From positions 124,001 through 188,000 of the forward strand of contig FMBT01000290.1 in assembly GCA_900095095.1 (NCBI GenBank): a stretch of DNA of 64,000 nucleotides, in the 5' to 3' direction. The notes under the pieces are model-generated. The model made no database searches, had not been told where the DNA came from, and was given only the letters and a program-made list of their open reading frames with translations. The DNA comes from Fragilariopsis cylindrus CCMP1102 (taxonomy: Eukaryota > Bacillariophyta > Bacillariophyceae > Bacillariales > Bacillariaceae). Below are positions 37,426 through 56,240 of the stretch, in pieces (the first letter of the stretch is position 1; each line of letters begins with the position of its first letter). The position numbers and the translations under genes were made by a program.

Positions 37426-38229
37426 TGTTAAATTATACATAGTACTCGATGTAGGAGTCATATGTCGTACATAAGCCCCGCGGAGTAGAAATACAAGCGC
37501 GATCAGATTAGTGAGGAGAAATGCACGTGTATGCATTATTGAGATAAAAGAGAACCGAAAGTTAGCTAAAAGCCAAACTCGCACTGTTTGAGTTGAAGTG
37601 ACCTTGTCGAAGCCGTTGTCGAAGCAATTGGAACCGAGCGCAAATAAGAGAAGTGCTTAGGTATATTTATACAAATCGGAACACGATTAGGAAGAGTGTC
37701 CGAATACATAGAACACGATTATGAAGAGTGTTATACATATGGAAGTCGAGCAGATGTCGATGTCCACCTTTGAACCGCTAATGCGATATATATGCATTGA
37801 GGCGAAGTGAGTTAGGAACAGAAAGTTGTATGCAGGGTTACTGGAAACCGCAATACTAAAATACGAAGAAAAGAGCAGAATTACCTCGATCACGAGAAAT
37901 AAACAATTGCTGTCTTTTATTGTTGAGAAATTGTAATAACCATAGACTAAATAAACAAGTGTGTTAATAACAACTTTTGCGTTTGAACATCATCGTTAGT
38001 ATCGTACGACGTTACTATAGATATATCTACAGAAAGTTACGCCATTCTTCTAGGGAAGTTTCGCTGACAAGAAGGGGTTAGATATCCTGGTAGAACAACC
38101 GTGAGTAGTCTTTCAATATAAGGGTCAAGAGTATCAACCCTTCCAGTTTTAATAGAATCTTACAAGACCGAAGAGTAAGACTATTATAATCCTGTTTCAC
38201 CAATCATCGATTGTCTGTGAAACGTACAA
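37426..38229 (+). repeat. 5' LTR of the outer copia element
   Basis: Starts TGTTAAATTATACATAG and ends CGTACAA. The right boundary is fixed by the primer site that begins at the next base and by the TSD after the 3' copy. It appears identical to 52842-53645. Contains a TATA-like gtatatttatac at 37661-37672. Confidence 0.93.
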
Positions 38230-38245
38230 GATTAACAGTCGCACG
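38230..38245 (+). promoter_or_regulatory. Primer-binding site complementary to the tRNA-Asn anticodon arm
   Basis: gattaacagtcgcacg begins directly after the LTR. It is identical over 16 bases to the complement of positions 25-40 of tRNA-Asn(GTT), encoded at 31658-31730. The primer's 3' end would be base 40 inside the anticodon stem, so only a cleaved 5' half-tRNA could prime. This is known for Drosophila copia, which uses a 39-nt initiator-Met tRNA fragment. Confidence 0.85.
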
Positions 38246-38420
38246 GTTTATCCTATAAACGTGCTGATCAACTTTCTTTTTAGTTCATCTGAACGACAAA
38301 AGGACCGGAGATCCAATTATATTTAATTGTAATTATTGAATTAACGATCTCGAAAGAAGTCTAAATTACAATAACCTCAAGTCTTAACAAATAAGAACTA
38401 GAGAAGCCATTCAACTGTGA

Positions 38421-40943
38421 ATGAGCCAGCAAGAAGAACAAGAGGATACTAACGAAACACTACCTACTGAAGGAAGTGATAACGATAGTAGATCCACTTA
38501 TTCCGAAGCAACAAGTGGAAACCAAGCGCCCGAAGCGTTAGGTGAAGGAACTCGTAGTCCCCCTTTTTGGGCAGACGACTTTCGGACTGAACTAACCTTT
38601 CTAGGTAATAACGTTCACACACCGAACCCGCGTAGGACTACCCGTCCAAGAGCTCCGATTAATAGATATACACCATCTGGTGATACTAATCAAGAGGAAG
38701 CCGATATAGAAAATAATCTTTTAAATATCCAGTTAGAAGTAAACACAGCTAGAGACGAAGAGGAAAGCACAGCAAGCGCTTCTAGCGGCTTACGCCCCGG
38801 CGATCCACTCTACGTCTCTCCGCCTAGACTACCTCTACCGGATAGTTCAAGTACAGATACATCTAGTGTTCCGGAAAGTCCCAGTCCACCTGAACCTATT
38901 GAAGAAGTCATTGATACGTCTTTTACGCTCGGAACATTTCCAACAGTACACGATCCTTACGTAAAAGGTTACGAAATTACTGCCAGAAATCCAGTTCCTA
39001 TCAACGTACCTCTACCTTCTCTTCCAGAGACTCCACCTTTACCTTCTCTTCCAGAGTTACCGTTAACAGAACGCCTTGATACATTGCTAACCGAGATCTG
39101 CAATTTCAGAGTCCGTAACTTAACAACTCGACGTGCATTTGCTACTAACATTACGCCTAGTAATACTAGCCCACCCAGGATGGCGACCACTCCTTTCGAT
39201 GCGGAACTCGAAGTCCTCTTGGTGAATATGTTGAAATGTACTACGCCAACAAATCCGATATACCTTGTGTTAGATCAGAACCACATCCACACATTTGAAC
39301 AATTTCGTTCTATTGAAATTGATGATTTGCCAACGTTTAAATACGAAAAGCCAACCACTGCAGGCACCGAAGAGTCTCTCCATACAACACCACTCAAGGA
39401 AGTACAAAACTGTGTACACTATTGTTGTTATCTAGAGACCGCTGCTGCCGTTGCTCTTGCTGGTGGAGTCATCGATTGTGACGATCCGTCTACATGGAAT
39501 TATGCGGGTATGTTAAACTGGAAACGTGCGATAACTGGTAAAGCTACATATCTTCGAACGTTAGTTATACCGGCAACGACTACAACAGGTGCTCCTGGCT
39601 CACCAACAATGATAGTTTCAGGCCCTATCTCTTTAAAAGATGATGAAGCCGCACTTATTAGTTGGAATCGAAAGCCTCGAGATCCTATAAAATACCCGAC
39701 CATCAACAACGATGCTTTCTATCAAGATTGGAAACTAAATTTTAAGAGACAAATTATCCAAGATACATTGGAAAGAGTATTGGATCCTAATTTCAATCCC
39801 GATCTTCGATCATCAACATGCTCAGTACGGAGTGGACCCGATGCAGAACTAGCAAGACTTCAAGTTAATTACTTCGCCCAAATCTTGTGTGTAGTTCTTA
39901 AGAACCCCGAAGGTCTAGGTCTTCTTATGGTCCATCCAGACGATCCGTTATATGTATGGAGAAATCACGAAGATCATCAGAACGACTCAGATGCAGCTCA
40001 GATAGCTACAACTACACTGATGAAGAAATTAATTGCATTGAAATTCAGCGATTTCAACACAAGACATGAATTTCTTACTTCATTTCAAGATACCTCCAGA
40101 CGGTACGATCAACTAGCTACTAATCACATGGATGATTCGGTAAAGATAACATTATTGCAAGCAGCAGTCATGGCCGATCCCGCGTTAATTAACTCCTGGC
40201 AATCATGTCAAGATAGTAAACGAGGAAACGCTTTGGCTGGATCATCTAGACCTGTTACGTATCATGAGTACATCACGTTTCTTATCAAATCAGCCAAGAA
40301 TCATGATCTATATACGCCATACAAGAAACCATCCCGTCAAGCTCATCAAGCTACATCAGAATCATTTTACAATGAAGAAATGAATGTAGACTATGGCGAC
40401 ACTGACGATGGAATTGACGAGTTCTTAGCTCATATGTCCGTATCCAACGAACCTATGACCGAACACGCTGAAAGTACAATGCAAGCCTATGCAGCATTCC
40501 AGAAGAATCGTCGTCCTCCTCGTGAGAGAGACCCTGACACTGAAATACCGAAACCAATCTTCGAAAAGTGTCCAAGAGATTTACGGATTGCATGGAGTAA
40601 GGCACCCAATGATATTAAGAAACAGATTCTTAAAATCAAAAACCATCCCACTAAGCAAGGTGCTAAGAAAAATAGTGAGTTAGGTGTCTACATTAGCGAT
40701 TTTGAAGGGTATGACTCCGACACATCCGGCCAATCAGAGCATACCTACGTATACGACGCTGATGATGCTGACGATACATCTGTCATAGAAGCAACTGATT
40801 TGACGGCAAATGCAGCAAGACGACGACAGCCCAATCAAGGTATACTCAAGAAGAAGGAATTACCAAGGAAGACTGAGCTGCCTTTAGCCGATCCACGTCG
40901 ATTCATGGCCAACAAAACCACTGTTGAATTATTAGCGCGATAG
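38421..40943 (+). CDS. gag: Gag-like part of the outer copia polyprotein, cut by the inner element
   Basis: ATG 38421 opens a frame of 840 residues. The native part ends at 40921. The last seven codons (VELLAR and stop) come from the inner element's left LTR. Residues 1-230 are acidic, Ser/Thr/Pro-rich and disordered, with a repeated LPSLPE motif (about 200-215). Residues about 265-650 are helical and gag-like (NYFAQILCVVLKNPEGLGLLMVHPDDPLYVW, LIALKFSDFNTRHEFLTSF). No CCHC zinc knuckle is visible, which sets it apart from the inner element; a basic tail (RRRQPNQGILKKKELPRK) may bind RNA instead. The reading frame resumes in the same phase after the inner element at 47573. Confidence 0.85.
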   Translation: MSQQEEQEDTNETLPTEGSDNDSRSTYSEATSGNQAPEALGEGTRSPPFWADDFRTELTFLGNNVHTPNPRRTTRPRAPINRYTPSGDTNQEEADIENNLLNIQLEVNTARDEEESTASASSGLRPGDPLYVSPPRLPLPDSSSTDTSSVPESPSPPEPIEEVIDTSFTLGTFPTVHDPYVKGYEITARNPVPINVPLPSLPETPPLPSLPELPLTERLDTLLTEICNFRVRNLTTRRAFATNITPSNTSPPRMATTPFDAELEVLLVNMLKCTTPTNPIYLVLDQNHIHTFEQFRSIEIDDLPTFKYEKPTTAGTEESLHTTPLKEVQNCVHYCCYLETAAAVALAGGVIDCDDPSTWNYAGMLNWKRAITGKATYLRTLVIPATTTTGAPGSPTMIVSGPISLKDDEAALISWNRKPRDPIKYPTINNDAFYQDWKLNFKRQIIQDTLERVLDPNFNPDLRSSTCSVRSGPDAELARLQVNYFAQILCVVLKNPEGLGLLMVHPDDPLYVWRNHEDHQNDSDAAQIATTTLMKKLIALKFSDFNTRHEFLTSFQDTSRRYDQLATNHMDDSVKITLLQAAVMADPALINSWQSCQDSKRGNALAGSSRPVTYHEYITFLIKSAKNHDLYTPYKKPSRQAHQATSESFYNEEMNVDYGDTDDGIDEFLAHMSVSNEPMTEHAESTMQAYAAFQKNRRPPRERDPDTEIPKPIFEKCPRDLRIAWSKAPNDIKKQILKIKNHPTKQGAKKNSELGVYISDFEGYDSDTSGQSEHTYVYDADDADDTSVIEATDLTANAARRRQPNQGILKKKELPRKTELPLADPRRFMANKTTVELLAR
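40917..40921. repeat. Target-site duplication (left) of the inner copia element
   Basis: accac before the inner left LTR is repeated at 47568-47572 after its right LTR, a perfect 5-bp duplication of outer-element coding sequence. Confidence 0.95.
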
Positions 40944-41234
40944 TCGACCACTTCGATTAACTATCCAACAACTGTGATACAACCGAGGTGCAGTTAAATA
41001 ACAGTTATGGGATATGATTCACACTTGGCTTGCTTGGCTGTAAGATCCAATACAAGACCTATCGTATCGCCCAATAATAGATGAAGATAGCTTTGAACAC
41101 AAGAAACACAAACACATGCGATTAGATCACAGGATGTAACAACATACTGCGCTCACTTTAATCTCTAACATCATTGTAACTCTAATACTAACTAGTTAAC
41201 AAACTACTGTATGTATTCGTATTTACTTCTAATA
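40922..41234 (+). repeat. 5' LTR of the inner copia element
   Basis: Starts TGTTGAATTATTAGCG and ends TTCTAATA (not the usual CA). Boundaries are fixed by the accac duplications and by comparison with the 3' copy. Confidence 0.93.
41156..41169 (+). promoter_or_regulatory. Candidate self-primer segment within the inner LTR
   Basis: ctttaatctctaac is the exact reverse complement (14/14) of 41235-41248, the first 14 bases after the LTR. If the transcript starts near 41156, its 5' end could fold back and prime minus-strand synthesis, as in the Tf1 retrotransposon of fission yeast. Present in both LTRs (right copy 47489-47502). Confidence 0.65.
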
Positions 41235-41248
41235 GTTAGAGATTAAAG
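41235..41248 (+). promoter_or_regulatory. Putative primer-binding site of the inner copia element
   Basis: gttagagattaaag starts flush with the LTR end, where a primer-binding site is expected. It pairs with LTR bases 41156-41169 and not with either standard tRNA in this window. The pairing stops exactly at the LTR border, since the next bases mismatch on both sides. Confidence 0.65.
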
Positions 41249-41267
41249 GAGCTACAACAACAAGTAC

Positions 41268-43133
41268 ATGATACCAACAACTCCTACCGGTTGGAACACT
41301 GTACCTAATCGTAATCGTAACAGGATCATCAGTCCAGACGACAACGATCAAGACAACAACAACAACAACAACAATCCATTTGGTCTATTGGAAGATTCCG
41401 ACTCCGAAGACGACGCATCGACATCCAGTGTCACCAGTGTTGTAGAACCAGCACAAGGCAACAGCGACGCAGCATATTTAGTAGATCCGGTTTCAACTTT
41501 AAACCGTATCGCAACTACGTCAAGCGTCCTAGATTCAGGCTCAACAGACCACATCGTAACGACGTATCGAACCGTTGATATCAGTAGACAGTACTTAGAA
41601 TTAGTACCTACTGTAGGAACCCAATTAGAATATACCGTATTACGTAACCAACCATATATCGATAATATATTAGAAAACTTCTACAATACAGTACCTGACG
41701 ATTCACTACCAGCTCTCTACACACCGCACGACGACGACGACGACACGGCATCAACTGTATCGATATCCAGCATTGGCAGTATGGGAAAGGATCTACCATC
41801 GATCGATGATCACCTAGGCCGGGAATACCAATCACCAGAAAGGAGCAACTTCAACTTTGCTGATGCTGTAGTATTCCGGGAGGCATTAGGTAACGCACTA
41901 GAAGGATGCCAACACACCGAAAGAGATGCAGGACATGCATATCTGGTGGATACCCTGAAGCGCAACTGCGAGAGATATGGAGATGATCTTGCCCGACTCC
42001 CACCACCGGCAAAGAAAGTGGCCTTACCCACCGGCGATGCCAGTGGAACATGGAGGAGGTATGAAGCGCTGAAGAAGATCTACGAGAAGGAGACCCATTG
42101 GAATGCTGAAGCTCTACAAGCAACAGTAAGGAGATTCCCCGAAACCATGAAAGAGCAAATGAATGATTATGGAACACTTCCATTGAACTATACCGTACGC
42201 CTAGCTCTCAACTTCATTGAAGGAAAGGTATCAGATCGTGTTAAGAAACAGAAAGCATATATCGATCTAATGGGATGCATCACTGCACGAGCGTACGTGC
42301 CATCACCTGAAGGACCGGTATCATACTTGAAGAAAATGGAACATGATAAACATTGTATCGATATCCTTTCAGGGAGTTCCAATGTTGAATTCGAATATTC
42401 ATGGGATACCCTCATCATCAACTGCCAGACCAAGATCCGTGGTAGTGGGAGCCACAACAACACGTATCTCCGATTGATTGAAGACAAGTGGGAAGCTGAT
42501 ATGCTACACAAACCAGTCATCGGTCGATGGAAACGGTTTAAGCAGCTATACATTAAGGAACTGCAGAAACTAACCGAAGATGGTATTGACAATAGTGCCA
42601 TGAGTGTTCAACAAGCCCTCATCGCCCGCGTCGACGCATTTGAATCAAAATACGAGACAGAAGTGCAAACCCTCAATAACAACCAACTACATTTGGAGAC
42701 TGCCTTCCAATCTTCAAGCGTCCCATCGGTCGTTGACACCGACGGTACCGGTACTGTATCAGGATCCATTTCGGGTACTGCCGCGTCCGGTATGCAGTTA
42801 GCTGCAATGTCCGATCTACTCCGTGAAGTGAAGGCTCTAAAAGCTGAAATCAATACCATGAAATCAACCAATACTGGTGGTGGAAAAGGAGGAAGGAAGG
42901 AAAAGGCAACTAAGGAATTGTACAACGTATGGCGCCAGTGGAAGTTCTGGTGCTACTCGTGTGGCTGTAACTTGAACCATGACAGCAAGGGTTGCCATTC
43001 ATTCAAGAAAAAGAAGGACCATAAAGATGAAGCGACCATGCAAAATCCTATGGGAGGTAATGAATCCAGGAACGAGTTCCATAACAAGTGGTGGAGCCCA
43101 GTAGATCATAAGCCGTACGACAATCCAGAATGA
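41268..43133 (+). CDS. gag: Gag protein of the inner copia element
   Basis: 621 residues from ATG 41268 to TGA 43131-43133. The N-terminus is Asn/Asp-rich and contains LDSGSTDHIV (about 88-97), a copy of an aspartic-protease-type motif unexpected in gag, and SDAAYLVDP (about 66-74), which recurs in RNase H of the same element. The central part (about 180-500) is helical and gag-like (WRRYEALKKIYEKETHW, LIEDKWEADMLHKPVIGRWKRF). The C-terminal nucleocapsid part has a zinc-knuckle-like CYSCGCNLNHDSKGC (about 564-578) followed by Lys-rich KKKKDHKDEATMQNPMGGN. The spacing of C and H is not the classical CX2CX4HX4C but suits the diatom variant. The stop is followed in the same frame by pol. Confidence 0.87.
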   Translation: MIPTTPTGWNTVPNRNRNRIISPDDNDQDNNNNNNNPFGLLEDSDSEDDASTSSVTSVVEPAQGNSDAAYLVDPVSTLNRIATTSSVLDSGSTDHIVTTYRTVDISRQYLELVPTVGTQLEYTVLRNQPYIDNILENFYNTVPDDSLPALYTPHDDDDDTASTVSISSIGSMGKDLPSIDDHLGREYQSPERSNFNFADAVVFREALGNALEGCQHTERDAGHAYLVDTLKRNCERYGDDLARLPPPAKKVALPTGDASGTWRRYEALKKIYEKETHWNAEALQATVRRFPETMKEQMNDYGTLPLNYTVRLALNFIEGKVSDRVKKQKAYIDLMGCITARAYVPSPEGPVSYLKKMEHDKHCIDILSGSSNVEFEYSWDTLIINCQTKIRGSGSHNNTYLRLIEDKWEADMLHKPVIGRWKRFKQLYIKELQKLTEDGIDNSAMSVQQALIARVDAFESKYETEVQTLNNNQLHLETAFQSSSVPSVVDTDGTGTVSGSISGTAASGMQLAAMSDLLREVKALKAEINTMKSTNTGGGKGGRKEKATKELYNVWRQWKFWCYSCGCNLNHDSKGCHSFKKKKDHKDEATMQNPMGGNESRNEFHNKWWSPVDHKPYDNPE

Positions 43134-43145
43134 GGACGTGGGAAG

Positions 43146-46100
43146 GTGATGGATATTGATAAATGTAGTGACTGTGTATTAACCATTAATAATAATAATA
43201 ATAATAATTATATGTTAAAAGCAACTACATATCTATCCCCTTCGAGTAATCTATATCAACAACCACGTACGCCTACCGTATATCGTAAACAACTTGTACC
43301 ATGCACTCCGAATGCCAACAGGAGATCACTCCGTGTATCGTTTCCATCCAATCTAATATGTGGACCAACACGAAAATCTGCAGCCTTAAAAGTTTGCAAC
43401 GTAATGATCGACAGGTACCCCGTAACAAGAGGCGCCATTGATTCTGGAGCAACAGACCATTTCTTACCAACAACGTACCGCGGAGACAACCATCAAGCGA
43501 CGTCCAATGGCATGAAAGTGAAGTGTGCAAATAACTCCATAATGACGTCCACATCTACAGACGTCCTGTCGCTCGCGAAGCTCCCACCACTAGCACGTAC
43601 CTGCCACAAGTTTGATGACGTATCAACGCCCCTCTTATCAGTGGGAAAGCTCTGTGACAACAACTTACACGTCCTATTTTCACAAAACCAAGTGACAGTC
43701 ACCGACAAGCCCCCAATCCTTACAGGTACAACCGTTATGGAAGGACGACGACAAAATGGACTCTATTTGGTGCCAATACACGACGGGGCGCATACACTTC
43801 CAAGGGTGGATGCACTTCCAAGGGTGGATGCACTTCCAAGGGTGAATCGAATCAATCCCATCGGAAACACCGCAGGGATTGCTACTGCAGCTAGCGCATA
43901 CGAAGTGCAAACAGTCGCCGCATTGACAAACTTCTTCCACATGACGTTAGGCTCACCTTCTATACCAGAATGGATCAACTGTATCAACAACAATTGGTTC
44001 AAGTCATGGCCGGGACTGAGCGCAGATAGAGTACGTAAGCACTGCACCAAGAAAGAACAAACTACACTTGGGAACCAGAAAATGATCAAGAAGAATGTCA
44101 GAACATCGAATATCATTGACCTATCAGTTAGAAAAGAACGTATTGAACTTAAGAAGAAATTACATGACATAGGTACCTTCTTAATTGATGGTAATGATAT
44201 GAAACAACTAATTGCAATGGATTTACCAGGACGATATCCTGTTACATCAGCAAGAGGCCACAAATACATCATGGTTATGTACGATTATGACACTAACTAC
44301 ATCAATGCAGTGCCTATAAGATCGAGGAAGTCAAGTGAACTCGTAGCAGCATTCAAGTTTTGTTATGATGAACTCAAGGAAAGAGGTTTCACAGCGCGTG
44401 TAATGCGATTAGATAATGAAATCTCGACAGAACTTATTGCAGCAATAGGGGAACTGAATTTAGACTACCAGATCGTATCGCCAGGAGACCATAGATTGAA
44501 CCATGCAGAACGTGCCATTCAAACCTTCAAGTCCAAGCTCATTGCTTTCAGAGAAGGCGCTGATCCGAGTTTTCCGAAGAACTGTTGGGACCTGTTTATT
44601 AAACAAACAGTATTAGCTATGAATCTAATGCGCCCATCAAGAATCAACCCATTAATATCAGCGTACACACTAGTACATGGCGAATTCGATTTCAATCGCA
44701 CTCCCATGGCCCCAGTTGGCTGTAAGGTCATAGTCCATGACAGAAGAGGTGAACGAGGTAGCTGGGACAACCATGGAAGCCATGGTTTCTATATCGAACG
44801 GGCGCCCCATCACTACAGGAACTACACTTGCTACATGAGGGACACCAAACAGAATCGTATATCCAATACGGTCGAGTTCTTTCCATCGCATTGTACCCTA
44901 CCCAAAGTTACACCTATCGACCGACTAACCTTGGTGTTACAGGACCTCCACGAAGTACTATCTCAACCTCCAAGTGATTTTCCTTTTATGAACCAAGGTA
45001 CGGACCTACACACGGCTATCACTGCAATTCAGAAAATCCTTTGCTTACAAGCAGATGACACCGCAACTACTGCACCAACAATCCCTGTGCCACTTCCAAG
45101 GGTGGAAGTAATAACCACTGACACCCAACGTGTAACAAGGTCCACCACAGCCACCAATAAAGTGTACGTCATTGGTACCATCATACGTCGAAAATTCACC
45201 AGTGGTTTCCACGAAGGTGAAATCACCAGATATGACCCAATTGAACAGTACTACAAAATAGTGTACCGCGATGGTGATACAGAAGAAATGTCATACAATG
45301 AAGTAAAACAATACCGGAAGAAGATTCAAAAGTATACCAGACCCATCAGGAAAGCATTACTACTACTCCCTATTCGGCACCGTCTACCAACCCCCGTCAT
45401 CAACAATATGCCTACAGCCAAAAGCCAACGTCCTAAAAAGGTACAACGTCTGAACCGATATAACCGAAATCCTACAGTGCAACAAAATCCAAATAGGTTT
45501 AGCAATGGATACAGTAAGGCAGTAGAACATCTACAACCAAACTTTGCGTTTGGAGCTTCGGGCGCCGTCTGGGACGACAGCCTCAATAAGATGGCGAAGT
45601 ATCGAGATCTAATCAATCACAAGGATCCTGTAATCAAAAATCGTTGGCTCCAATCAGGAGAAAACGAATTTGCCCGTTTATTCCAAGGTTATGGTGAAAC
45701 TGAAGGAGTAGATGTACTGGATTGGATCCGCAAAGAGGACGTACCCCGTAACAAACAAGTAACGTATCCAAGATATGTAGTTGCTGTTAGACCAGAAAAG
45801 TCAGAACCATACCGTACTAGAATCACAGCGGGAGGCGATAGGATTGACTACGAAGGCAACGTAACAACGCATACAGCTTCAATGGAAACAATCAAGATGC
45901 ATTGGAACTCAGTCGTTTCCACTCCAGGTGCCAAGTACTGCACCGCAGATATATCGAACATGTACTTATGCTCGCTATTGCCTGACGAAGAATATGTCAG
46001 ATTCAAACATGATATGATACCACCGAATATAATCAAGCACTACTTATTAGACAAGTTAGTAGTCAATGGATTTGTATATGCCAAAATCAAGAAGGCATGG

Positions 46101-47276
46101 TATGGTCTCAAGCAATCCGGTAAGATTGCACATGACGACTTGGTACAACACTTAGAAAAATACGGTTACGTAAAAGAAAAACGCACTGATGGCTTATTCA
46201 GCCACAAGGAACGCGACATCAACTTTACACTAGTAGTGGATGATTTTGGTATCAAGTACACCGACAAAGCAGATGTAGAACACCTAGTTACCGCACTACG
46301 AGAAAAATACCCATTAAAAGTTGATTGGAAAGCCGAACAATATATCGGGATTCACCTAAAATGGAACTATATTGACCGTGAAGTTATCTGCTCCATGGAT
46401 GGGTATGTAGAACAAGCACTGAAGGAATTCAACCACATCATCCCAAAACAACTACATTCAGGACCTTCCAAGATAGACCGACCTGATTATGGTGCCAAAG
46501 TTCAATATGTAAAAGAAGACTTGACAAATAAGTTAGATGAAGATCAAATCAAATTCATACAACGCGTCACAGGAAAATTCCTATTTTACGCAAGAGCTAT
46601 AGATGACACTATGCTACATGCAATTAATGACATCGCATCATCAACAGCAAATGGTACTGAAGCAACATTGGTAGCAACGACATATTTCCTAAATTATGCT
46701 GCAAGCAATCCAAATGGTCAAATCATATACAGAGCCAGCGACATGATACTCAGAATCGATTCAGATGCAGCATATTTAGTGCGCCCTGAAGCAAGAAGCA
46801 GAGCAGGTGGCTACCATTATCTAGGAAGCAAAGACGGTACATTATTCAATGGACCCATCCTTGTACTAGCAAAAATTATCAAAAATGTTATGGCATCAGC
46901 AGCGGAAGCAGAAGTGGCAGGTATCTACCTGAACGCCACAGAAGCTGTATCAGAACGAAATTGCCTCATTGAAATGGGACACCCACAACCGCCTACACCA
47001 ATCAAAACAGATAACACAACAGCACGTGGTATTATTACTGGTACTATCAAACAAAAAAGGTCAAAAGCCATTGACATGAGATTTTACTGGTTAAAAGACA
47101 GGTTTGAACAAAAGCAATTTGATTATGTGTGGGGACCAGGTATTGAGAACCTAGCCGATTATCCGACTAAACATCACTCTGGAAAACACCATAGTACTGT
47201 TAGACCCATCTACCTATATATAAAAAATAAAAGTCCAAAAACTATCCAAGGGTGTGTTGAATTATTAGCGCGATAG
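43146..47276 (+). CDS. pol: Pol polyprotein of the inner copia element
   Basis: About 1,375 residues, in the same frame as gag. The first ATG is 43149; the open frame runs back to the gag stop. The protease is at AIDSGATDHFLP (DSGA at about 43439-43450). The integrase has IAMDLPG (about 44217), MRLDNEIS (about 44406) and NHAERAIQTFK (about 44505) as D, D, E. A Tudor/chromo-like module follows (about 45163-45320: GTIIRRKFTSGFHEGEITRY ... YRDGDTEEMSYNEV). The reverse transcriptase (about 45660-46390) has CTADISNMYL and LVVDDFG (VDD at about 46236). RNase H (about 46755-47190) has SDAAYL, AEAEVAG, TDNTTA and ENLADYPTKH. Just before integrase, 18-bp repeats encode three LPRVDA units. The stop TAG (47274-47276) lies 22 bases inside the 3' LTR. 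How pol is expressed past the gag stop is not clear; readthrough or reinitiation are options. Confidence 0.9.
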   Translation: MMDIDKCSDCVLTINNNNNNNYMLKATTYLSPSSNLYQQPRTPTVYRKQLVPCTPNANRRSLRVSFPSNLICGPTRKSAALKVCNVMIDRYPVTRGAIDSGATDHFLPTTYRGDNHQATSNGMKVKCANNSIMTSTSTDVLSLAKLPPLARTCHKFDDVSTPLLSVGKLCDNNLHVLFSQNQVTVTDKPPILTGTTVMEGRRQNGLYLVPIHDGAHTLPRVDALPRVDALPRVNRINPIGNTAGIATAASAYEVQTVAALTNFFHMTLGSPSIPEWINCINNNWFKSWPGLSADRVRKHCTKKEQTTLGNQKMIKKNVRTSNIIDLSVRKERIELKKKLHDIGTFLIDGNDMKQLIAMDLPGRYPVTSARGHKYIMVMYDYDTNYINAVPIRSRKSSELVAAFKFCYDELKERGFTARVMRLDNEISTELIAAIGELNLDYQIVSPGDHRLNHAERAIQTFKSKLIAFREGADPSFPKNCWDLFIKQTVLAMNLMRPSRINPLISAYTLVHGEFDFNRTPMAPVGCKVIVHDRRGERGSWDNHGSHGFYIERAPHHYRNYTCYMRDTKQNRISNTVEFFPSHCTLPKVTPIDRLTLVLQDLHEVLSQPPSDFPFMNQGTDLHTAITAIQKILCLQADDTATTAPTIPVPLPRVEVITTDTQRVTRSTTATNKVYVIGTIIRRKFTSGFHEGEITRYDPIEQYYKIVYRDGDTEEMSYNEVKQYRKKIQKYTRPIRKALLLLPIRHRLPTPVINNMPTAKSQRPKKVQRLNRYNRNPTVQQNPNRFSNGYSKAVEHLQPNFAFGASGAVWDDSLNKMAKYRDLINHKDPVIKNRWLQSGENEFARLFQGYGETEGVDVLDWIRKEDVPRNKQVTYPRYVVAVRPEKSEPYRTRITAGGDRIDYEGNVTTHTASMETIKMHWNSVVSTPGAKYCTADISNMYLCSLLPDEEYVRFKHDMIPPNIIKHYLLDKLVVNGFVYAKIKKAWYGLKQSGKIAHDDLVQHLEKYGYVKEKRTDGLFSHKERDINFTLVVDDFGIKYTDKADVEHLVTALREKYPLKVDWKAEQYIGIHLKWNYIDREVICSMDGYVEQALKEFNHIIPKQLHSGPSKIDRPDYGAKVQYVKEDLTNKLDEDQIKFIQRVTGKFLFYARAIDDTMLHAINDIASSTANGTEATLVATTYFLNYAASNPNGQIIYRASDMILRIDSDAAYLVRPEARSRAGGYHYLGSKDGTLFNGPILVLAKIIKNVMASAAEAEVAGIYLNATEAVSERNCLIEMGHPQPPTPIKTDNTTARGIITGTIKQKRSKAIDMRFYWLKDRFEQKQFDYVWGPGIENLADYPTKHHSGKHHSTVRPIYLYIKNKSPKTIQGCVELLAR
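43796..43850 (+). repeat. 18-bp triplicate acttccaagggtggatgc in inner pol
   Basis: Three tandem copies encode LPRVDA-LPRVDA-LPRVNR. The core ccaagggtg also occurs at 45095-45103 and as the purine-rich end (47246-47254) right before the 3' LTR. Confidence 0.85.
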
Positions 47277-47567
47277 TCGACCACTTCGATTAACTATCCA
47301 ACAACTGTGATACAACCGAGGTGCAGTTAAATAACAGTTATGGGATATGATTCACACTTGGCTTGCTTGGCTGTAAGATCCAATACAAGACCTATCGTAT
47401 CGCCCAATAATAGATGAAGATAGCTTTGAACACAAGAAACACAAACACATGCGATTAGATCACAGGATGTAACAACATACTGCGCTCACTTTAATCTCTA
47501 ACATCATTGTAACTCTAATACTAACTAGTTAACAAACTACTGTATGTATTCGTATTTACTTCTAATA
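47255..47567 (+). repeat. 3' LTR of the inner copia element
   Basis: Appears identical to 40922-41234. Contains the pol stop codon (47274-47276) and, near its end, an ATG at 47544 that is in frame with the remaining pol part of the outer element. Confidence 0.93.
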
Positions 47568-50500
47568 ACCACACCAGTAATAGGTAAAGATGGTAAAGTT
47601 GTTGGTCATATCGCATATACGGCAGCTATGGCTAAAATCAATCATCGTTTTGATCAAGTCGATTGTCATCTACCAAATACTCCCAAAGACAACTACGTCG
47701 TCTCCGTTAATGCAACGAAATTCTTTAATGAACCACTCGCATTAATGGATGGCGGAGCTAATGGTGGAATTGGAGGCAGAGATATGAGACTCATGTCTTA
47801 CAATGCTGACGGACGACGTGTCAATATAGGTATTGCAGGTGATCATCAAATGACTGGCAAGAGACTTGGAACATTTTGTTCTGTAATTGTTACAAACAGA
47901 GGCAAGATTCTAGCCATATTTCATCAATATGCTCATGTACCTGAACAAGAAAAATCGATTCACTCGAAATGTCAGTTCCAAGCGCATAATAATCTTGTTG
48001 GAGATACAGCGACAGCCTATGGCGGACCACAACGTATTCAAACTGCAGACGGATATCAGTTACCATTATCTATACGCTCTGGATTACCGTACATTCGCCA
48101 AACATATCCTACCAATGATGAGATTAAAGAACTTACACATGTACAGTTTACTTCACCTGCCGAATGGAATCCTACTCTGAATGACGATAGCCGTACACCT
48201 GAAGAAATGCTCAAGCAATTTCCTCCTATGCCACGGTCCGCTATCAACGAATTCTACGATCAAGAAGGTAATATTAATTACGACTATCTTTCTAAACAAG
48301 AACATAGACCAATACGTGCAACAGTTCAAACCGTTGAAATTGAACATAACGATGATGACAGTGTTGGTTCTATGCCTGGTTTACAAGATCGAGCTCAAGA
48401 AGAAGATTCCTCAAGTGATGATGAACCTGTAGTTGATAAATTCAAGCAACCAACTACAATTGTATGGAATGATCCAATCGATGACTCCAATGGGGAGAAA
48501 ATTGAATGTTCTCGACTTAGAAAAAGTAGGCTCAGACGCCGTACCCGAATCAAAGAAAAACGACTCAAAGCTAAAGCGTCTAAACAAGAACTGATTGATA
48601 AGAAACCATCTGCTACTACAGCTAATGATTTACCAATCCCAATTATTGATAATATGGTCAATGATAACGAATCCCCTACAATGGTAGACGGCATCGAGTT
48701 CTTTTCAACGGATCCTCATCCACTTCAACCTAATATCATCGACGACGTTATTGAAGAAATGAAGATGGACGATCTACTGTTCTACGATTCACTAGATTCA
48801 CCCAATGACTCCACAGTTTTCGTAGATACAAAATCAGACACCTCGTATCTTGATGACTTATCTACCTTCAGACCGACTGAACACGAATACTGGGAAGACT
48901 TTTTAATGGATGAATCTACTCAGCGTCTGATCTATCAAGGAACACTCGATTATTATGAACAATATGACATTAATGCTACCGACATTGCTAATGTAATGAA
49001 TCCTCTTACACCAAGATATTCTGTACCTACGGTCATCGATTATGAATCCAAAAGGAAGTACTTTGCACATCTACCTGCTTCGATTGTTAAAGCTACCTTC
49101 AAGCATACAACTCAGAATATGAAACTACCCCCAGCCTCATATCTGCACAAGATGTTCAAATCACCTAATCCTTCTGCGAATCTCAAACGCCGTGATGAAG
49201 ACGATGCCACCGACATGATCTATTCAGATACTCCTGCATGCAACGGTGGTGAGAAATGTGCACATATCTTCGTGGGACGAAAATCGAAACTCACCGATGC
49301 ATACAAAGTAAAACATCAGAATGCTGAAGACTTTCTACTTTGCTTCCAAGATCGTGTTCGTCAAAGAGGATGTCCCACTGGACTAGTAGCAGATAACGCT
49401 CCTATGTATCGAGGATGGAAAAACGCAGTGTACCTTCGAGACATTTGTATTTCATTATGGCAATGCGAATCCAAATATCAGCACCAAAACTATGCTGAAA
49501 ATCGATGGCAAACTGTCAAACGGTACACGAACCGAGTAATGGACCGCAGCGGATGTCCTCCCTACGTTTGGTTTCTAGCATTATCTTATGTTATATTCTG
49601 TCTCAACAATTGTGTTGATCCAAACATCGGAGAGGGAAACAAGAGTCCACTACAAATCGCAACATTTCAAATGACTGATATTAGCCCTCTGCTATACTTC
49701 TATTTTTGGGAACCTGTTTATTATCTCGTTGATGAATCAGAACAGCATTTCCCAAGTAAGTCCAAAGAAATGAGAGGTCGATGGGTAGGAATCTCCGAAC
49801 ATATCGGTAACAAGATGACCTACAAAATCATTTCCGATACAACTGGAAACGAAATTTGTCGCTCGGCCATACGTACTGCACGAGACAATACGATGAAGAA
49901 CCTACGCGAAGATCCTGTCACGGTAGACAAAGATCTATTCAATGTTGAAGATATCCTTTCTCCGGCAGAAGATATTGCTAACAATAAGTTAAAAGAAGTA
50001 ACCTCGGGAAATACTTTTAACGATTTTGATGCATCAGCAATATCCAAGGATATCGAAATTCAACTCCAGGCAGAATTAGATGCAAGATTTAACGACTCGA
50101 ATGAACAGCAGACTGGTCATTTTAAAACGGCGTCGCCAAAACGTGCACCTCCTACTGGACCACAACGTCATGTAAAACAGAAGCGTTTAAGCTCCTTAAA
50201 TCCTATGGATAAAACTAAGGATAAAGGTTTACGACGTAGTTCACGACATAAACCCCTTCAAAACTTGAACGTTAAAGGAGTTACCACACTATTGACCCAA
50301 GTCAATAATACTGATATCAACCATCCCACCAACCCACAGCCGTCTACCGCAACTCGTCAACAGGTCCTCAAACAACGTGACACATCTATCAAGGAACAGC
50401 TAGATTCATTTGTCTATCTTCGAGAAAATGGGGAGAATGAATATCTTTTGGGAAAAGAATTTGAGTTTCCTCTTAAAGACGAAAATGGCAACGCGATACT

Positions 50501-52847
50501 CGGAGACGACGGCAAACCGTTGGTAGCAATAGCGCCCCCACCAAGTGATCTAGTAGGAAGAGTTTTCCTAACCAAACCCGACGAGAGAGGTGAAGTTAAT
50601 AGAGCACGAGTTGTAGAACTTATCAAAGACTTTGAAGGCAAAGTTGAAAAGGATATGAATCTAATCAAGTTCAAGCTAAACTATGATCACAGTTCCCAAG
50701 AAGACATCATGTCGTACAACGAAATTCTGGATTACATCGAAAGAGAACAGAACAATGAAGACGGACATCATTGGAAATTTCGTACTATCTTAGGACACGT
50801 ACATACTCCTGTGGGACACAAGGATAGAATGGGGAGTGACTACAACGTCAGAACAGCTTGGGAAACGGGAGCAATTTCGGTTGAACCATTGGACTTCCTT
50901 GCTAAGGACATTCCTGTTGATCTTGCTATCTATGCCAAGAAATTTGACCTACTCGAATTGGAAGGATGGAAACGCTTTAAAAGAATTGCTAACCGAGATA
51001 AGCATATTCGACGACTTGTGAAACAAGCCAAGCTACGATCCTTCCGTGTTACTCCTAAGTACAAGTATGGATTCTCTATACCGCGTAACTACAAGGAAGC
51101 CCTTGAGTTTGACGAAAGGAACGGTAATCATAAATGGCAAGAAGCAAATGTATTGGAACATGCACAATTAACGGATTATGCAGTATTCAAGAACAAGGGA
51201 GAATTCCATGATGCAAAGATACCAGAAGGTTATCGCAAGATCAAAGTTCATACTATCTTTGATGTGAAACACGATGGCAGGCATAAAGCTCGAGTTGTAG
51301 CTAATGGTAACCTAACGGATACTCCACTCGAATCTGTTTACTCAGGTGTTGTTTCATTACGCGGATTACGTACATGCATATTCTTAGGAGAACTTAACGG
51401 CATGACCCCATGGGCTACTGATATTGGAAATGCTTATCTTGAAGCAAAGACCACCGAAAAGGTATGCATCAAAGCAGGGCCAGAATTTGGGGAGCTACAA
51501 GGAAACCTTCTTATCATCGATAAGGCTCTTTACGGATTAAGACTTAGCGGAAAAGCATTCAACATTTTGCTATCTGACTGTCTACGCGACCTAGGATTCT
51601 ACCCATCCAAAGCAGAATCAAGTATTTTCATGAGAAAATGTCCTACAAGAGACGTGTACGAATATGTGGCCACATATGTTGATGACCTATGCATTGTTAT
51701 GGAGAATCCTAGGGAGTTCCTAAACCAGCTGTCGTCAGCACCGTACAACTTCAAACTGAAAGGTTCAGGAGAAGTTAACTTCCACTTAAGTTGTGGATTT
51801 GAGAGAGACTCTGATGGAGTATTATGTATGGACCCAAGCCGGTACATAGACAAGATGGAAGATGCCTACAAGCAATATTTCAAGGAATTGCCTAACCAGA
51901 AGCACAGATCACCACTAGTGAAGGGAGACCATCCAGAACTTGATGTAACCAAGTTTCTTGACCAAGACGGTATTGAAATATATCAATCATTAATAGGAGC
52001 TATGCAATGGGCAATCTCTATTGGACGATGGGATATACAATCCGCAGTAATGAGCTTATCAAGCTTTAGAGCGCAACCACGAAAGGGACATCTTGAAAGA
52101 ATCAAGCGTATCTACGGATTCTTATGCAAGTTCAGGCATTTCAAACTACGGTTTCGAGTTGATGAACCAGACTATTCTGGTATTCCACCAATGCCACCCT
52201 ACGATTGGAGCCATTCTGTATATGGAAACCCAACTGAAGACATCCCTAAAGATGCACCAGCTCCACTGGGAAAACGAATCGTTTTGACCCATTACTTCGA
52301 TGCAAATCTAATGCATGACGTACTATCAGGAAAAGCAGTTACAGGTGTAGTTCACTTCTACAACAAGACTCCCGTTGATTGGTATTCCAAGAAACAATCT
52401 ACCACGGAAACCGCAACGTACGGATCTGAATTCCTGGCATGTCGAACCTGTTTCGAACAGATCATTGATCACCGACAGTATCTACGATACCTTGGAGTAC
52501 CAGTAGGAGATGAGGACTACGCATGGGGAGACAATGACGCGATGATCAATAGTGCAACCATACCGGACGCAAAGTTACATAAACGACATAACATTCTGTC
52601 ATTTCACTTTGTTAGAAGCTTAATTGCAAGTGGTTTCATTAATCTGCAACATATTAAATCGGAAAGTAATATTGCAGATATACTTACGAAACATTGGGGT
52701 TATCAAAGTACGTACGAATTGATCCGTCCAATCTTTCATTTTGGAGGTAACACGGCCGCGTTATATTTTGATGATACATTAGAAGTCGATCGTCACATTA
52801 CTGAATCAGAGTTAGCAGAAATCGTTACGACCAATGGGGAGTGTTAA
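47544..52847 (+). CDS. pol: Pol part of the outer copia polyprotein, downstream of the inner insertion
   Basis: The native sequence resumes at 47568. The preceding codons to ATG 47544 are inner LTR. The protease region has LALMDGGANGGIGGRD (about 47738-47780), where DGG replaces the usual D-S/T-G. Integrase: IYSDT (about 49220), LVADNAPM (about 49384) and QNYAENRWQ (about 49488) give D, D, E. A chromo/Tudor-like stretch lies at about 50545-50740 (GRVFLTKPDERGEVNRARVVELI). The reverse transcriptase (about 51240-51830) has ATDIGNAYLEA, KALYGLRLSGKAF and YVDDL (51675-51689). RNase H (about 52290-52720) has YFDANLMHD, TETATYGSEFLA, WGDNDAMI and SNIADILTKHWG. The frame ends at TAA 52845-52847, formed by the first bases of the 3' LTR. 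All enzyme motifs look intact; only the link to gag is broken by the inner element. Confidence 0.9.
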   Translation: MYSYLLLITTPVIGKDGKVVGHIAYTAAMAKINHRFDQVDCHLPNTPKDNYVVSVNATKFFNEPLALMDGGANGGIGGRDMRLMSYNADGRRVNIGIAGDHQMTGKRLGTFCSVIVTNRGKILAIFHQYAHVPEQEKSIHSKCQFQAHNNLVGDTATAYGGPQRIQTADGYQLPLSIRSGLPYIRQTYPTNDEIKELTHVQFTSPAEWNPTLNDDSRTPEEMLKQFPPMPRSAINEFYDQEGNINYDYLSKQEHRPIRATVQTVEIEHNDDDSVGSMPGLQDRAQEEDSSSDDEPVVDKFKQPTTIVWNDPIDDSNGEKIECSRLRKSRLRRRTRIKEKRLKAKASKQELIDKKPSATTANDLPIPIIDNMVNDNESPTMVDGIEFFSTDPHPLQPNIIDDVIEEMKMDDLLFYDSLDSPNDSTVFVDTKSDTSYLDDLSTFRPTEHEYWEDFLMDESTQRLIYQGTLDYYEQYDINATDIANVMNPLTPRYSVPTVIDYESKRKYFAHLPASIVKATFKHTTQNMKLPPASYLHKMFKSPNPSANLKRRDEDDATDMIYSDTPACNGGEKCAHIFVGRKSKLTDAYKVKHQNAEDFLLCFQDRVRQRGCPTGLVADNAPMYRGWKNAVYLRDICISLWQCESKYQHQNYAENRWQTVKRYTNRVMDRSGCPPYVWFLALSYVIFCLNNCVDPNIGEGNKSPLQIATFQMTDISPLLYFYFWEPVYYLVDESEQHFPSKSKEMRGRWVGISEHIGNKMTYKIISDTTGNEICRSAIRTARDNTMKNLREDPVTVDKDLFNVEDILSPAEDIANNKLKEVTSGNTFNDFDASAISKDIEIQLQAELDARFNDSNEQQTGHFKTASPKRAPPTGPQRHVKQKRLSSLNPMDKTKDKGLRRSSRHKPLQNLNVKGVTTLLTQVNNTDINHPTNPQPSTATRQQVLKQRDTSIKEQLDSFVYLRENGENEYLLGKEFEFPLKDENGNAILGDDGKPLVAIAPPPSDLVGRVFLTKPDERGEVNRARVVELIKDFEGKVEKDMNLIKFKLNYDHSSQEDIMSYNEILDYIEREQNNEDGHHWKFRTILGHVHTPVGHKDRMGSDYNVRTAWETGAISVEPLDFLAKDIPVDLAIYAKKFDLLELEGWKRFKRIANRDKHIRRLVKQAKLRSFRVTPKYKYGFSIPRNYKEALEFDERNGNHKWQEANVLEHAQLTDYAVFKNKGEFHDAKIPEGYRKIKVHTIFDVKHDGRHKARVVANGNLTDTPLESVYSGVVSLRGLRTCIFLGELNGMTPWATDIGNAYLEAKTTEKVCIKAGPEFGELQGNLLIIDKALYGLRLSGKAFNILLSDCLRDLGFYPSKAESSIFMRKCPTRDVYEYVATYVDDLCIVMENPREFLNQLSSAPYNFKLKGSGEVNFHLSCGFERDSDGVLCMDPSRYIDKMEDAYKQYFKELPNQKHRSPLVKGDHPELDVTKFLDQDGIEIYQSLIGAMQWAISIGRWDIQSAVMSLSSFRAQPRKGHLERIKRIYGFLCKFRHFKLRFRVDEPDYSGIPPMPPYDWSHSVYGNPTEDIPKDAPAPLGKRIVLTHYFDANLMHDVLSGKAVTGVVHFYNKTPVDWYSKKQSTTETATYGSEFLACRTCFEQIIDHRQYLRYLGVPVGDEDYAWGDNDAMINSATIPDAKLHKRHNILSFHFVRSLIASGFINLQHIKSESNIADILTKHWGYQSTYELIRPIFHFGGNTAALYFDDTLEVDRHITESELAEIVTTNGEC
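47568..47572. repeat. Target-site duplication (right) of the inner copia element
   Basis: accac, matching 40917-40921; it is also the point where the outer gag-pol frame resumes. Confidence 0.95.
52833..52841 (+). promoter_or_regulatory. Polypurine tract of the outer copia element
   Basis: aatggggag directly precedes the TG of the 3' LTR at the position where plus-strand DNA priming occurs in LTR elements. It is one base short of pure purine. Confidence 0.65.
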
Positions 52848-53645
52848 ATTATACATAGTACTCGATGTAGGAGTCATATGTCGTACATAAGCCCCGCGGA
52901 GTAGAAATACAAGCGCGATCAGATTAGTGAGGAGAAATGCACGTGTATGCATTATTGAGATAAAAGAGAACCGAAAGTTAGCTAAAAGCCAAACTCGCAC
53001 TGTTTGAGTTGAAGTGACCTTGTCGAAGCCGTTGTCGAAGCAATTGGAACCGAGCGCAAATAAGAGAAGTGCTTAGGTATATTTATACAAATCGGAACAC
53101 GATTAGGAAGAGTGTCCGAATACATAGAACACGATTATGAAGAGTGTTATACATATGGAAGTCGAGCAGATGTCGATGTCCACCTTTGAACCGCTAATGC
53201 GATATATATGCATTGAGGCGAAGTGAGTTAGGAACAGAAAGTTGTATGCAGGGTTACTGGAAACCGCAATACTAAAATACGAAGAAAAGAGCAGAATTAC
53301 CTCGATCACGAGAAATAAACAATTGCTGTCTTTTATTGTTGAGAAATTGTAATAACCATAGACTAAATAAACAAGTGTGTTAATAACAACTTTTGCGTTT
53401 GAACATCATCGTTAGTATCGTACGACGTTACTATAGATATATCTACAGAAAGTTACGCCATTCTTCTAGGGAAGTTTCGCTGACAAGAAGGGGTTAGATA
53501 TCCTGGTAGAACAACCGTGAGTAGTCTTTCAATATAAGGGTCAAGAGTATCAACCCTTCCAGTTTTAATAGAATCTTACAAGACCGAAGAGTAAGACTAT
53601 TATAATCCTGTTTCACCAATCATCGATTGTCTGTGAAACGTACAA
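52842..53645 (+). repeat. 3' LTR of the outer copia element
   Basis: Second copy of 37426-38229 with no differences seen. Its first five bases complete the pol stop codon. Followed by the catat target duplication and an AT microsatellite. Confidence 0.93.
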
Positions 53646-54200
53646 CATATATATATATATATCACAGAGTACATCAATGAGTTAGAGGTCAATGTATCCC
53701 TAACATGGTAACCCTCCTCTTTGCTACTAGTAACACCAAAACTGACCACATCATATAATAACAAGAAACAACAATATATTGTTACAGATTAATTTATATG
53801 TTTTAGAAAATGAAAGTTGATTTTAAACACCCAACATGGATAACATCCCATTGTGTATAATTACGGATCTTATAAAGCAATCAGCATATAATTAGGGATT
53901 TTACAAAGCAATCAACACAGGTCAATTTGGTGAAAACCACCTCATTCATTGTACTAATTTTTTAATAATTAAATTTTTAAGAATAAAAAAAAACTACCCC
54001 ACACACACTACCGTACTATGCACATGGAAACCAACCAATTTTCATCCAGTGATATAATATGCGGAGTCATACTAAAAGCAGGGTTGTTGTGAAAAAGTAT
54101 CATGAGAACAGTAACTTTAAAAGTCAAAAATTTAAAATATAAATAAATAATTGATCCTAACTTACTTGGCCAAAAAATTGTTCGCAAAACAAAAAGATTT
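53646..54200. other. Intergenic region between the outer copia element and the permuted tRNA
   Basis: Starts with the TSD catat and an (AT)n run (to about 53661). Contains an imperfect 31-bp tandem duplication (about 53859-53920) sharing aaagcaatca and an A-rich segment. No gene seen. The T5 run that would end the permuted tRNA transcript lies at 54191-54195 (minus strand). Confidence 0.5.
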
Positions 54201-54286
54201 TCGTAGTCAGACGCCTTACCGTTGGGCCAACAGGACAGTAGCAGTATGCAAATCCCGCCTGGGAATCGAACCCAGAATCTTCTGAT
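54201..54286 (-). tRNA. Circularly permuted tRNA-Arg (ACG) gene
   Basis: On the minus strand the 3' half of a tRNA comes first (54286 down to 54251) and the 5' half second (54236 down to 54201), with 14 bases (tgcatactgctact) between. Put in tRNA order the halves give: acceptor GTCCTGT paired with GCGGGAT (7/7, three of them G-U); D arm GCC/GGC with AACGGTAA loop; anticodon stem TCTGA/TCAGA (5/5) with loop CTACGAA, anticodon ACG (plus-strand bases 54202-54204); variable loop AGATT; T arm CTGGG-TTCGATT-CCCAG (5/5). The total is 72 nt without CCA, very like eukaryotic tRNA-Arg(ACG). The break is between positions 37 and 38, the usual tRNA intron site. A T5 Pol III terminator (ctttttg) follows the 5' half within 10 bases. 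The leader has a second A-box-like stretch (cgctcaatcgcc, about 54305-54316). Bases TGTA in the leader can pair with TACG of the anticodon loop as in a splicing bulge-helix-bulge. Confidence 0.78.
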
Positions 54287-54552
54287 TTATACAGATATAT
54301 TCTGGCGATTGAGCGAATTTTACCTATATAAACTATAGTTTATAGTTTATGTAAATCTGGTTTGACGCATAAGATTTTGAAGATACAAATAGTTTATTTA
54401 TTTGACGATGACCTTCTATCGGCAGTAATAATACTGTAACAACAAGATCTAAAAGAGTAGCAACAAATACAGGAATAACAATAACATCGTTGTCGACACC
54501 GGCAACACAGCAAATAGCCACAACAACAACTTCATCGATTGCTGCTATTGTT
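54287..54552. promoter_or_regulatory. Leader/promoter region shared by the permuted tRNA (-) and the VHL/PUB gene (+)
   Basis: Contains a palindrome-like ataaactatagtttat (54328-54343) and a TATA-like tttatatagg on the minus strand about 40 bases before the permuted tRNA's first half. The frame of the downstream gene is open back to a TGA at 54409-54411 but has no ATG before 54553. Confidence 0.35.
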
Positions 54553-56240
54553 ATGGTGGGTTCTTATCTTCGATATTTACTTTGGAATCTATGGGATGTA
54601 TGGTTCAGTCGTATTGTGGTAACAATTTTGATCGTGATTTTGTGGGATACTTTTATACAACCGAGAAAGGAGAAAAAGAAGGAACATCATGAGGTAGCAA
54701 CACAAGAAGTATTACCTGGTCGTAGAACGGAAAATCCAAATTCGAATTCGAAACTCTTAGATAGTATAGATCGCAGCAAAGATACAACCGATGACAACAA
54801 CGACGACGAATTAATAATAACAACAACAAGAAGGAATAGAAACGACTGCAATGTACCTGCAACAACGGAAAAATTGGGATTAATGGAGATCAATCATCAC
54901 GAGAATTACGACAAGAACGAAGAGAAGAGCAGCAACAGAAATAGCACCACAAGTAACGATCCAAGTAATAGTCATGATAATGATGATGACGACGACGAAG
55001 TTGCGGTCGGCATAACGACAACTACAACAGATAAAGATCACGTTGATGACTCAACTGCCAAAATACGATCATCGCCGTCGCGCAAATCATCAGTACTAGG
55101 CACTGCTACTACTACTACTACTACTACTACTACTATTACTACTACAAGAATCAAATCAAATGCAAACAATCATCCTGGATTAAATGGATTTAGTCATTGG
55201 TATGAAGTTGAAACATCATTGTATAGAATATATACATTAACACGCAATGATGGTATTGATGTTGTACCACCATACGTACCACATTCGTATCGTGGGAATG
55301 TATCAATTTTTCTACATATAACAAATGAAACTAATCATACAATTAATGTATATTGGGTTGATTATAAAGGTAAACATATACAGAAAGGACAAATATTATC
55401 AAATCAAATTTGGACACAAACAACATGGATCGATCATCGTAAGTAACAAACATATATACAAATGATGTGGAAATTTATAATTCCCATTTCTTTTATCCAA
55501 TGAAAACTCACACACGCACACACGCACACTCCTTAGCCTGGGTATTTGAAAATGCTCTAGATTCTACACCATATCTATATTATGTTCCATATCGAGTTAT
55601 TCCGACTATTCCTACAGCACCAACGGTTGGTGATAATGAAATGGCACTACATAAATTTAAATTAATCCCTCCTTCATCATTAACACAATGGGGTGATGAC
55701 CCTGATCCTTTTTATATAGGTATCCAAGATGATATTATGCCATTTCCTGCTATGAAATATTTAAATCAACCATTGCATGGTATTAATTGGACATTGACAC
55801 ATATGATTCGGAATAATATTATTACTCCATATTCATCGTCATCATATAGTATTGATTTATTACAAACATATCTAACTAATATAATGAATCATCCTGATAA
55901 GATAAAATATCGACAAATACGAATCTCTAATCCTAAGTTTAAAAATGTTATTTGGGATACACCAATGAAAGGATTATTATTAGCAATCGGATTTGTTGAT
56001 GTTGGTCCATTTGCGGAATTAGGATGTCATGATGAACCTTTACCATCAGAATGGATTCAAGATATTGCTCTCTTGAGTTACCTATTAAATGAATGGAAAA
56101 GTAACAACCTCATTACTACTACTAATACTACTAGTACTATCAATAATGGTGACGGTCAACAACAAGAACAACGCCAACCACCGGGAGCTACCGATGGCTT
56201 TGGACGCGCAGGTTTTGGACGAGCCGGGGCGATAAATTAA
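54553..56240 (+). CDS. Membrane-anchored VHL-beta-like and PUB domain protein (two exons)
   Basis: Exon 1 is 54553-55438 and exon 2 is 55537-56240 (GTAAGT donor, TTAG acceptor, split Pro codon), giving 529 residues. Residues about 2-35 form an N-terminal membrane anchor (YLRYLLWNLWDVWFSRIVVTILIVILW). A long disordered Asn/Asp/Thr/Ser-rich linker follows, with a Thr run near 190. The VHL beta-like domain begins around residue 255: VSIFLHITNETNHTINVYWVDYKGKHIQKGQILSNQIWTQTTW, and the intron junction completes it with IDHPWVFEN. The PUB domain (about 430-480) shows LLQTYLTNIMNHPDKIKYRQIRISNPKFKNVIWDTPMKGLLLAIGF. PUB domains bind the p97/VCP tail, and VHL-beta domains bind peptide degrons, so a role in membrane-protein quality control is a reasonable inference. 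No upstream ATG is in frame, so an additional 5' exon remains possible. Confidence 0.8.

Follow-up and report, generated by a model that had tools for sequence, protein, structure and literature searches.

A tRNA-Arg(ACG) gene with swapped halves in the diatom Fragilariopsis cylindrus

The genome of Fragilariopsis cylindrus CCMP1102 was considered here as an assembly of 67.9 Mb in 818 contigs. The sequence under study, henceforth the window, is a stretch of 64,000 nucleotides from one of these contigs (C91:124001-188000), which we infer from its gene content to be nuclear. A seryl-tRNA synthetase is encoded in the window. Among the matches listed for it, 84% identity over 77% of the query was found with a protein labelled Psemu1, which we take to be from Pseudo-nitzschia multiseries, 75% over 90% with Nitzschia inconspicua, 73% over 84% with Seminavis robusta, and 99% with a metagenome protein. 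These matches point to a pennate diatom that belongs to the Bacillariaceae or stands close to them, in keeping with the diatom origin proposed by a first-pass annotation made from the letters of the sequence. On the minus strand, from position 54286 to position 54201, the two halves of a tRNA-Arg(ACG) gene stand in swapped order, the 3' half upstream and the 5' half downstream, on the same strand and with 14 bases between them. Positions within the tRNA follow the usual tRNA numbering throughout. The features of the locus are as follows, in the order of the minus strand.

54344-54339, minus strand: second TATAWA motif, starting at -58 (sequence)
54325..54330, minus strand: TATA-like motif TATAWA, with its start at -44 relative to the 3' half (sequence)
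54306..54316, minus strand: weak A-box-like leader sequence, differing from TRGYNNARNNG at one position
54290..54293, minus strand: leader bases -7 to -4, which could pair with U33-G36 (three Watson-Crick pairs and one G-U) as a relaxed splice-site helix (sequence)
54252..54286, minus strand: 3' half of tRNA-Arg(ACG), positions 38-72 (identity to the ordinary genes over 38/38 bases, and permuted covariance models)
54251, minus strand: U73 (read from the sequence)
54237..54250, minus strand: intervening segment of 14 bases between U73 and G1 (sequence), without a T4 run, which means little, since such a run is also missing from 92% of random 15-base stretches
54201..54236, minus strand: 5' half of tRNA-Arg(ACG), positions 1-37 (identity to the ordinary genes over 37/38 bases)
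54218, minus strand: U for C at tRNA position 20, in the D loop (sole difference from the ordinary genes)
54191..54195, minus strand: T5 run, a possible Pol III terminator, five bases past position 37 (sequence)

Rejoined in tRNA order, the halves make a complete tRNA. All seven acceptor pairs can form, three of them as wobble pairs (G1-U72, U5-G68 and U7-G66); read from the sequence, the anticodon and T stems have five pairs out of five each and the D stem three out of four, the unpaired 13-22 of the latter being common to the permuted copy and to both ordinary genes of the same anticodon. The conserved positions U8, G18G19, 15-48, U33 and U54U55C56 are present. The joined sequence folds into a cloverleaf at -21.3 kcal/mol, the ordinary tRNA-Arg(ACG) at -22.0. 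The coordinates, the order of the halves, the 14-base linker, the acceptor stem with its three G-U pairs, the complete anticodon and T stems and the T5 run had all been described in the first-pass annotation, and all are present. It had also stated that the halves meet exactly at 37/38: the junction is indeed there, but its exactness does not hold, for in each half the match to the ordinary gene extends across the AA at 37/38. This shared dinucleotide leaves a two-base ambiguity, so that breaks at 36/37, 37/38 and 38/39 are indistinguishable. Neither ARAGORN nor Rfam calls a tRNA at the locus, a silence expected for such a gene because its halves are swapped.

Detection of the locus was obtained with a covariance model of permuted tRNAs, built from 15 tRNAs of this genome with their halves swapped, and with a second model of 14 rows from which tRNA-Arg(ACG) was left out. 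The first model gave 73.3 bits (E 2e-19) at 54286-54201, the next place in the window scoring 25.3 bits; the second still gave 65.4 bits (E 7e-18), with a runner-up in the window at 24.9 bits. The covariance search proposed at the outset thus recovers the locus even when its own kind is withheld from the model, and the match is far beyond chance. That the swapped arrangement is real we hold to be practically certain. The scan covered the 64-kb window and 25 loci out of 84, most of these 25 in the neighbourhood of ordinary tRNA genes or LTR copies, where the 15-row model reached at best 33.4 bits. In the search of the genome for tRNA families, 63 of 2708 candidates were scored. An own-genome search with tRNA-Ser(TGA) returned four full-length matches and a fifth, partial one that covers 1-66 of 81; the halves are swapped in none of the five. 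The pattern of the two exact halves separated by a gap of 5-34 had no match in viral contigs and none in prokaryote genomes, as expected. Membership of a repeat family was considered and rejected: the 2.6 kb around the locus match only themselves, together with the halves in two ordinary genes. The decayed copies that would have marked the arrangement as a repeat fragment were accordingly not found, and the permuted locus is single-copy in the genome.

Two ordinary, intronless tRNA-Arg(ACG) genes were found in the genome (C763:4654-4725 and C205:169717-169788). The 72-base query matches each of them at 100% identity and has no other match but the two swapped halves in the window. This answers the question, raised from the sequence at first, of whether a normal gene exists. 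Expression of such a gene, together with a lack of reads across the join, had been named as an outcome that would speak against a permuted gene; its first element, the existence of the normal gene, is established. The consequence is that the permuted copy is dispensable. It agrees with the ordinary genes at 71 of 72 positions (38/38 bases matched by the 3' half and 37/38 by the 5' half), the one change being C to U at position 20. The three acceptor G-U pairs, G1-U72 included, had been taken as a possible sign of decay; both ordinary genes carry them, so that they are the normal state of this tRNA and that suspicion falls. Within this one genome, the 71/72 identity agrees with selection and with youth alike. 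The two ordinary loci have 3.8 kb in common at 98% identity and are thus either alleles or recent duplicates; they diverge over a short stretch immediately upstream of the tRNA, and some of the downstream pieces are rearranged. The flanks of the permuted locus show no likeness to those of the ordinary genes beyond short chance matches, only the halves being in common, and the 14-base linker has no similarity to the leader or the trailer of the ordinary genes (1630 and 1469 of 2000 shuffles as good).

Some putative signals for transcription are present. A T5 run within 12 bases occurs by chance at a rate of 1.7% over the window and of 4.9% in the local flank, while 51 of 52 ordinary tRNA genes with distinct upstream sequences show a T4 run no further than about 25 bases from the gene end. 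TATAWA is found in 4.2% of random 60-base stretches and upstream of 13 of the 52 distinct ordinary tRNA genes, being absent in 39, so that most ordinary tRNA genes probably depend on the A and B boxes inside them. Transcription driven by a TATA element does not seem to be usual for tRNA genes in this genome, although this is uncertain. In the permuted gene the A and B boxes stand in inverted order. The additional A-box-like sequence of the leader, pointed out in the first reading, does exist and lies at a distance from the B box that is within one base of the spacing in ordinary genes, but it is weak: with one mismatch allowed, an A box occurs in 29% of random 60-base stretches, a figure that falls to about 2% for three fixed registers, a restriction noticed post hoc.

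Processing would require a cut in the anticodon loop. The break at 37/38 is at the place of the canonical tRNA intron and, with the ambiguity noted above, a simple count puts about 3 of the 72 possible breaks there. Four or more consecutive pairs on the diagonal between leader and loop, as with bases -7 to -4, are met in 1.7% of random places. A splice-site helix is expected to include the pair 32:-3. In the permuted gene 32:-3 is C-U, which does not pair, and the hBH helix is imperfect. Left to fold freely, the precursor is unremarkable (z -0.91, 36 of 200 shuffles as good) and the splice-site helix is not chosen; enforcing the cloverleaf costs 0.7, 5.9, 0.7 and 2.2 kcal/mol above the best fold for four leader lengths. 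The same genome carries a tRNA-Ser(GCT) gene (positions 170-275 of C62:187300-187700) with a 22-base intron at 37/38, in which bases -3 to -6 can pair, by eye, with 32-35, and the splice site looks canonical. A domain of the tRNA intron endonuclease (PF01974) was found on another contig, C665, with 35 bits for a cut-off of 27, over positions 9-49 of 85 and in one exon. Together, this domain and the intron-bearing tRNA-Ser(GCT) suggest that this diatom makes the cut required. A search of the genome for the RtcB ligase found none, while 9 of 14 control genomes were positive. The Pfam profiles of Trl1-type ligases (PF09511 and PF08302) had no match in the genome, but none either in any of the 14 controls, hence a search that is uninformative; Trl1-type ligases do occur in diatoms, according to what PMC4090602 says of them. 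The intron-bearing tRNA-Ser of this diatom implies a ligase of some kind.

Permuted tRNA genes form a known kind, tabulated in a 2014 review from one red alga, four prasinophytes, one nucleomorph and one archaeon (PMC3978253). By our own count in Table 1 of that review, the break lies at 37/38 in 26 of 34 genes; it gives linkers of 1-74 bases, a range that includes the 14 bases seen here. Later additions are Auxenochlorella (PMC12636532) and the nucleomorph of Amorphochlora amoebiformis (PMC4494063). The closest likeness is with the type II genes of prasinophytes and of the Bigelowiella natans nucleomorph (Maruyama et al. 2010, in PMC3978253), where the 3' half also comes first, the break is at 37/38, linkers are short as well (5-64) and some leaders are AT-rich, a further trait counted as shared with the diatom gene. 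These genes belong to another lineage; the table of that review includes Arg(TCT) of O. tauri, but no tRNA-Arg(ACG). The diatom differs from this type in that its permuted gene, read as DNA, coexists with two ordinary genes for that anticodon, neither with an intron, and has an imperfect hBH helix. In Cyanidioschyzon merolae (Soma et al. 2007, in PMC3978253) the order of the halves is the same, six of 11 junctions are at 37/38, and most genes have a TATA-like element less than 50 bases upstream and a T run downstream, as in the diatom gene. By contrast, the permuted tRNAs of C. merolae are reported there to be made and charged, whereas the diatom copy has been read only as DNA, and 39 of the 52 ordinary diatom tRNA genes have no upstream TATAWA. 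The Auxenochlorella genes, found after the tRNAscan-SE set proved incomplete (PMC12636532), and those of A. amoebiformis (PMC4494063) are nuclear or nucleomorph genes, as here, and of green-algal lineage, unlike the diatom; they were compared by description only. No report of a permuted tRNA gene in diatoms or other stramenopiles was recognised in the full-text literature, which leaves subscription papers mostly outside its coverage, and within those bounds the earlier statement that none was known in diatoms stands; in PMC13353863 and PMC4929541 permuted tRNAs are named in the references and not in the text. The diatom gene joins a known kind, the type II permuted tRNA genes, in a lineage for which no example was found in the literature searched.

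What, then, is this locus? A recently formed type II permuted tRNA-Arg(ACG) gene with its junction at 37/38, in a diatom nucleus and open to processing, is the reading that we favour, to the extent of giving it an even chance. Pol III would transcribe the leader, the 3' half, the 14 bases and the 5' half, and would stop at the T5 run. The precursor would fold with both of its ends leaving the anticodon loop; the tRNA splicing endonuclease would trim these ends at 37/38 and a ligase would join them into a circle, from which RNase P and tRNase Z would take out the 14 bases before addition of CCA. It must be stressed that the points in favour were weighed after the sequence had been seen.

A serious competitor, to which we grant somewhat under an even chance, is a recent rearrangement without function: a copy, circular or tandem, of the tRNA gene or of the tRNA would have been inserted, opened in the anticodon loop by accident or on account of the frequent cutting of tRNAs at that place, and be too young to have decayed. 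The existence of two ordinary genes, the single copy of the permuted locus and its inverted promoter boxes all agree with such an accident; the single difference in 72 positions is explained by youth alone, and flanks without trace of those of the ordinary genes are what an insertion leaves. Against it, the 37/38 break, the T5 run and the four-pair helix would each arise by chance at about 2-5% (judged post hoc), and the linker is unlike the trailer and leader of the ordinary genes, so that a plain tandem or cDNA copy is not what is seen. That two separate tRNA fragments landed side by side is very improbable: the linker has no known source, as this would allow, but the halves make up one tRNA between them, with an overlap of two bases, on the same strand and 14 bases apart, and the outer half that each fragment would have lacked is not convincing in either flank. 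An assembly artefact is hardly credible, as the locus lies inside a contig of 1.24 Mb, the swap takes place within 86 bases, the linker and flanks were found by the searches nowhere else in the genome and the permuted copy carries a base change of its own.

The processable permuted gene raises the question of its birth. In the standard model, as set out in one review, a tandem pair of intron-bearing genes loses its outer halves (Soma 2014, PMC3978253). Decayed outer halves, as traces of a tandem duplication, were sought in leader and trailer and none stood out. In local alignments, dinucleotide shuffles did as well in 262 of 1000 cases for the leader with the 5' half and in 944 of 1000 for the trailer with the 3' half. 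For the reverse pairings, 29 of 1000 shuffles were as good for the leader with the 3' half, yet 277 of 1990 genomic windows equalled it, and 128 of 1000 for the trailer with the 5' half. Ungapped and in the expected register, the leader has 13 identities in 36 (P 0.07) and the trailer 6 in 36; with shifts of 0-4 allowed, P becomes 0.14 and 0.04, respectively. The same places score higher with halves of other tRNAs (Phe, Lys and Asn in the leader; Phe, Lys and Arg(CCT) in the trailer), and outer-half relics were rejected because of this. More tentatively, and below either of the two main readings, we suggest a working permuted diatom tRNA gene observed soon after birth, with an intronless tRNA-Arg(ACG) gene as its possible parent in place of a tandem pair with introns. 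An event at the DNA level and reverse transcription of a circular tRNA cannot be told apart here. The possible parents are still present, nearly identical and intronless, and U20 is a marker that would separate the product of the permuted gene from the parental tRNA-Arg(ACG) at one base. Since the parents persist, the birth of permuted genes and their immediate usability could be tested through that one base in tRNA sequencing.

The neighbourhood deserves a few words of its own. A copia-type LTR element (about 37884-53648) ends some 0.55 kb from the permuted gene. Its LTRs are near-identical, differing at one of 349 compared positions, and enclose about 15 kb with several long frames, perhaps nested elements; with 40 of 195 candidates scored, the LTR is matched at 39 or more other places in the genome, one of them being the element's own 5' LTR. 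On the inner border of that 5' LTR (38230-38245, plus strand), the 16 bases GATTAACAGTCGCACG are fully complementary to tRNA-Asn(GTT) over about positions 25-40, in the anticodon arm (13 bases matched by script, three by eye). GATTAACAGTCGCACG resembles a primer site for a 5' half-tRNA. There is precedent in the copia element of Drosophila, primed by a half tRNA-iMet; nothing on point for diatom copia was found in the literature searched. The primer of the element probably comes from a tRNA of the Asn kind, and a link between the permuted gene and the adjoining copia was considered and set aside, as the primer site fits tRNA-Asn and not tRNA-Arg. Two ordinary tRNA genes, Gly(GCC) at 31240-31310 and Asn(GTT) at 31658-31730 (minus strand), lie about 0.35 kb apart in the window. 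A frame with a PUB domain (PF09409, 49 bits) occupies 55443-56240 on the plus strand, opposite to that of the permuted gene. Elsewhere in the assembly, the first 10 kb of a 17.7 kb contig (C419:1-10000) hold five tRNA genes (Glu, His, two Met and Val), and this contig is probably a piece of an organelle genome.
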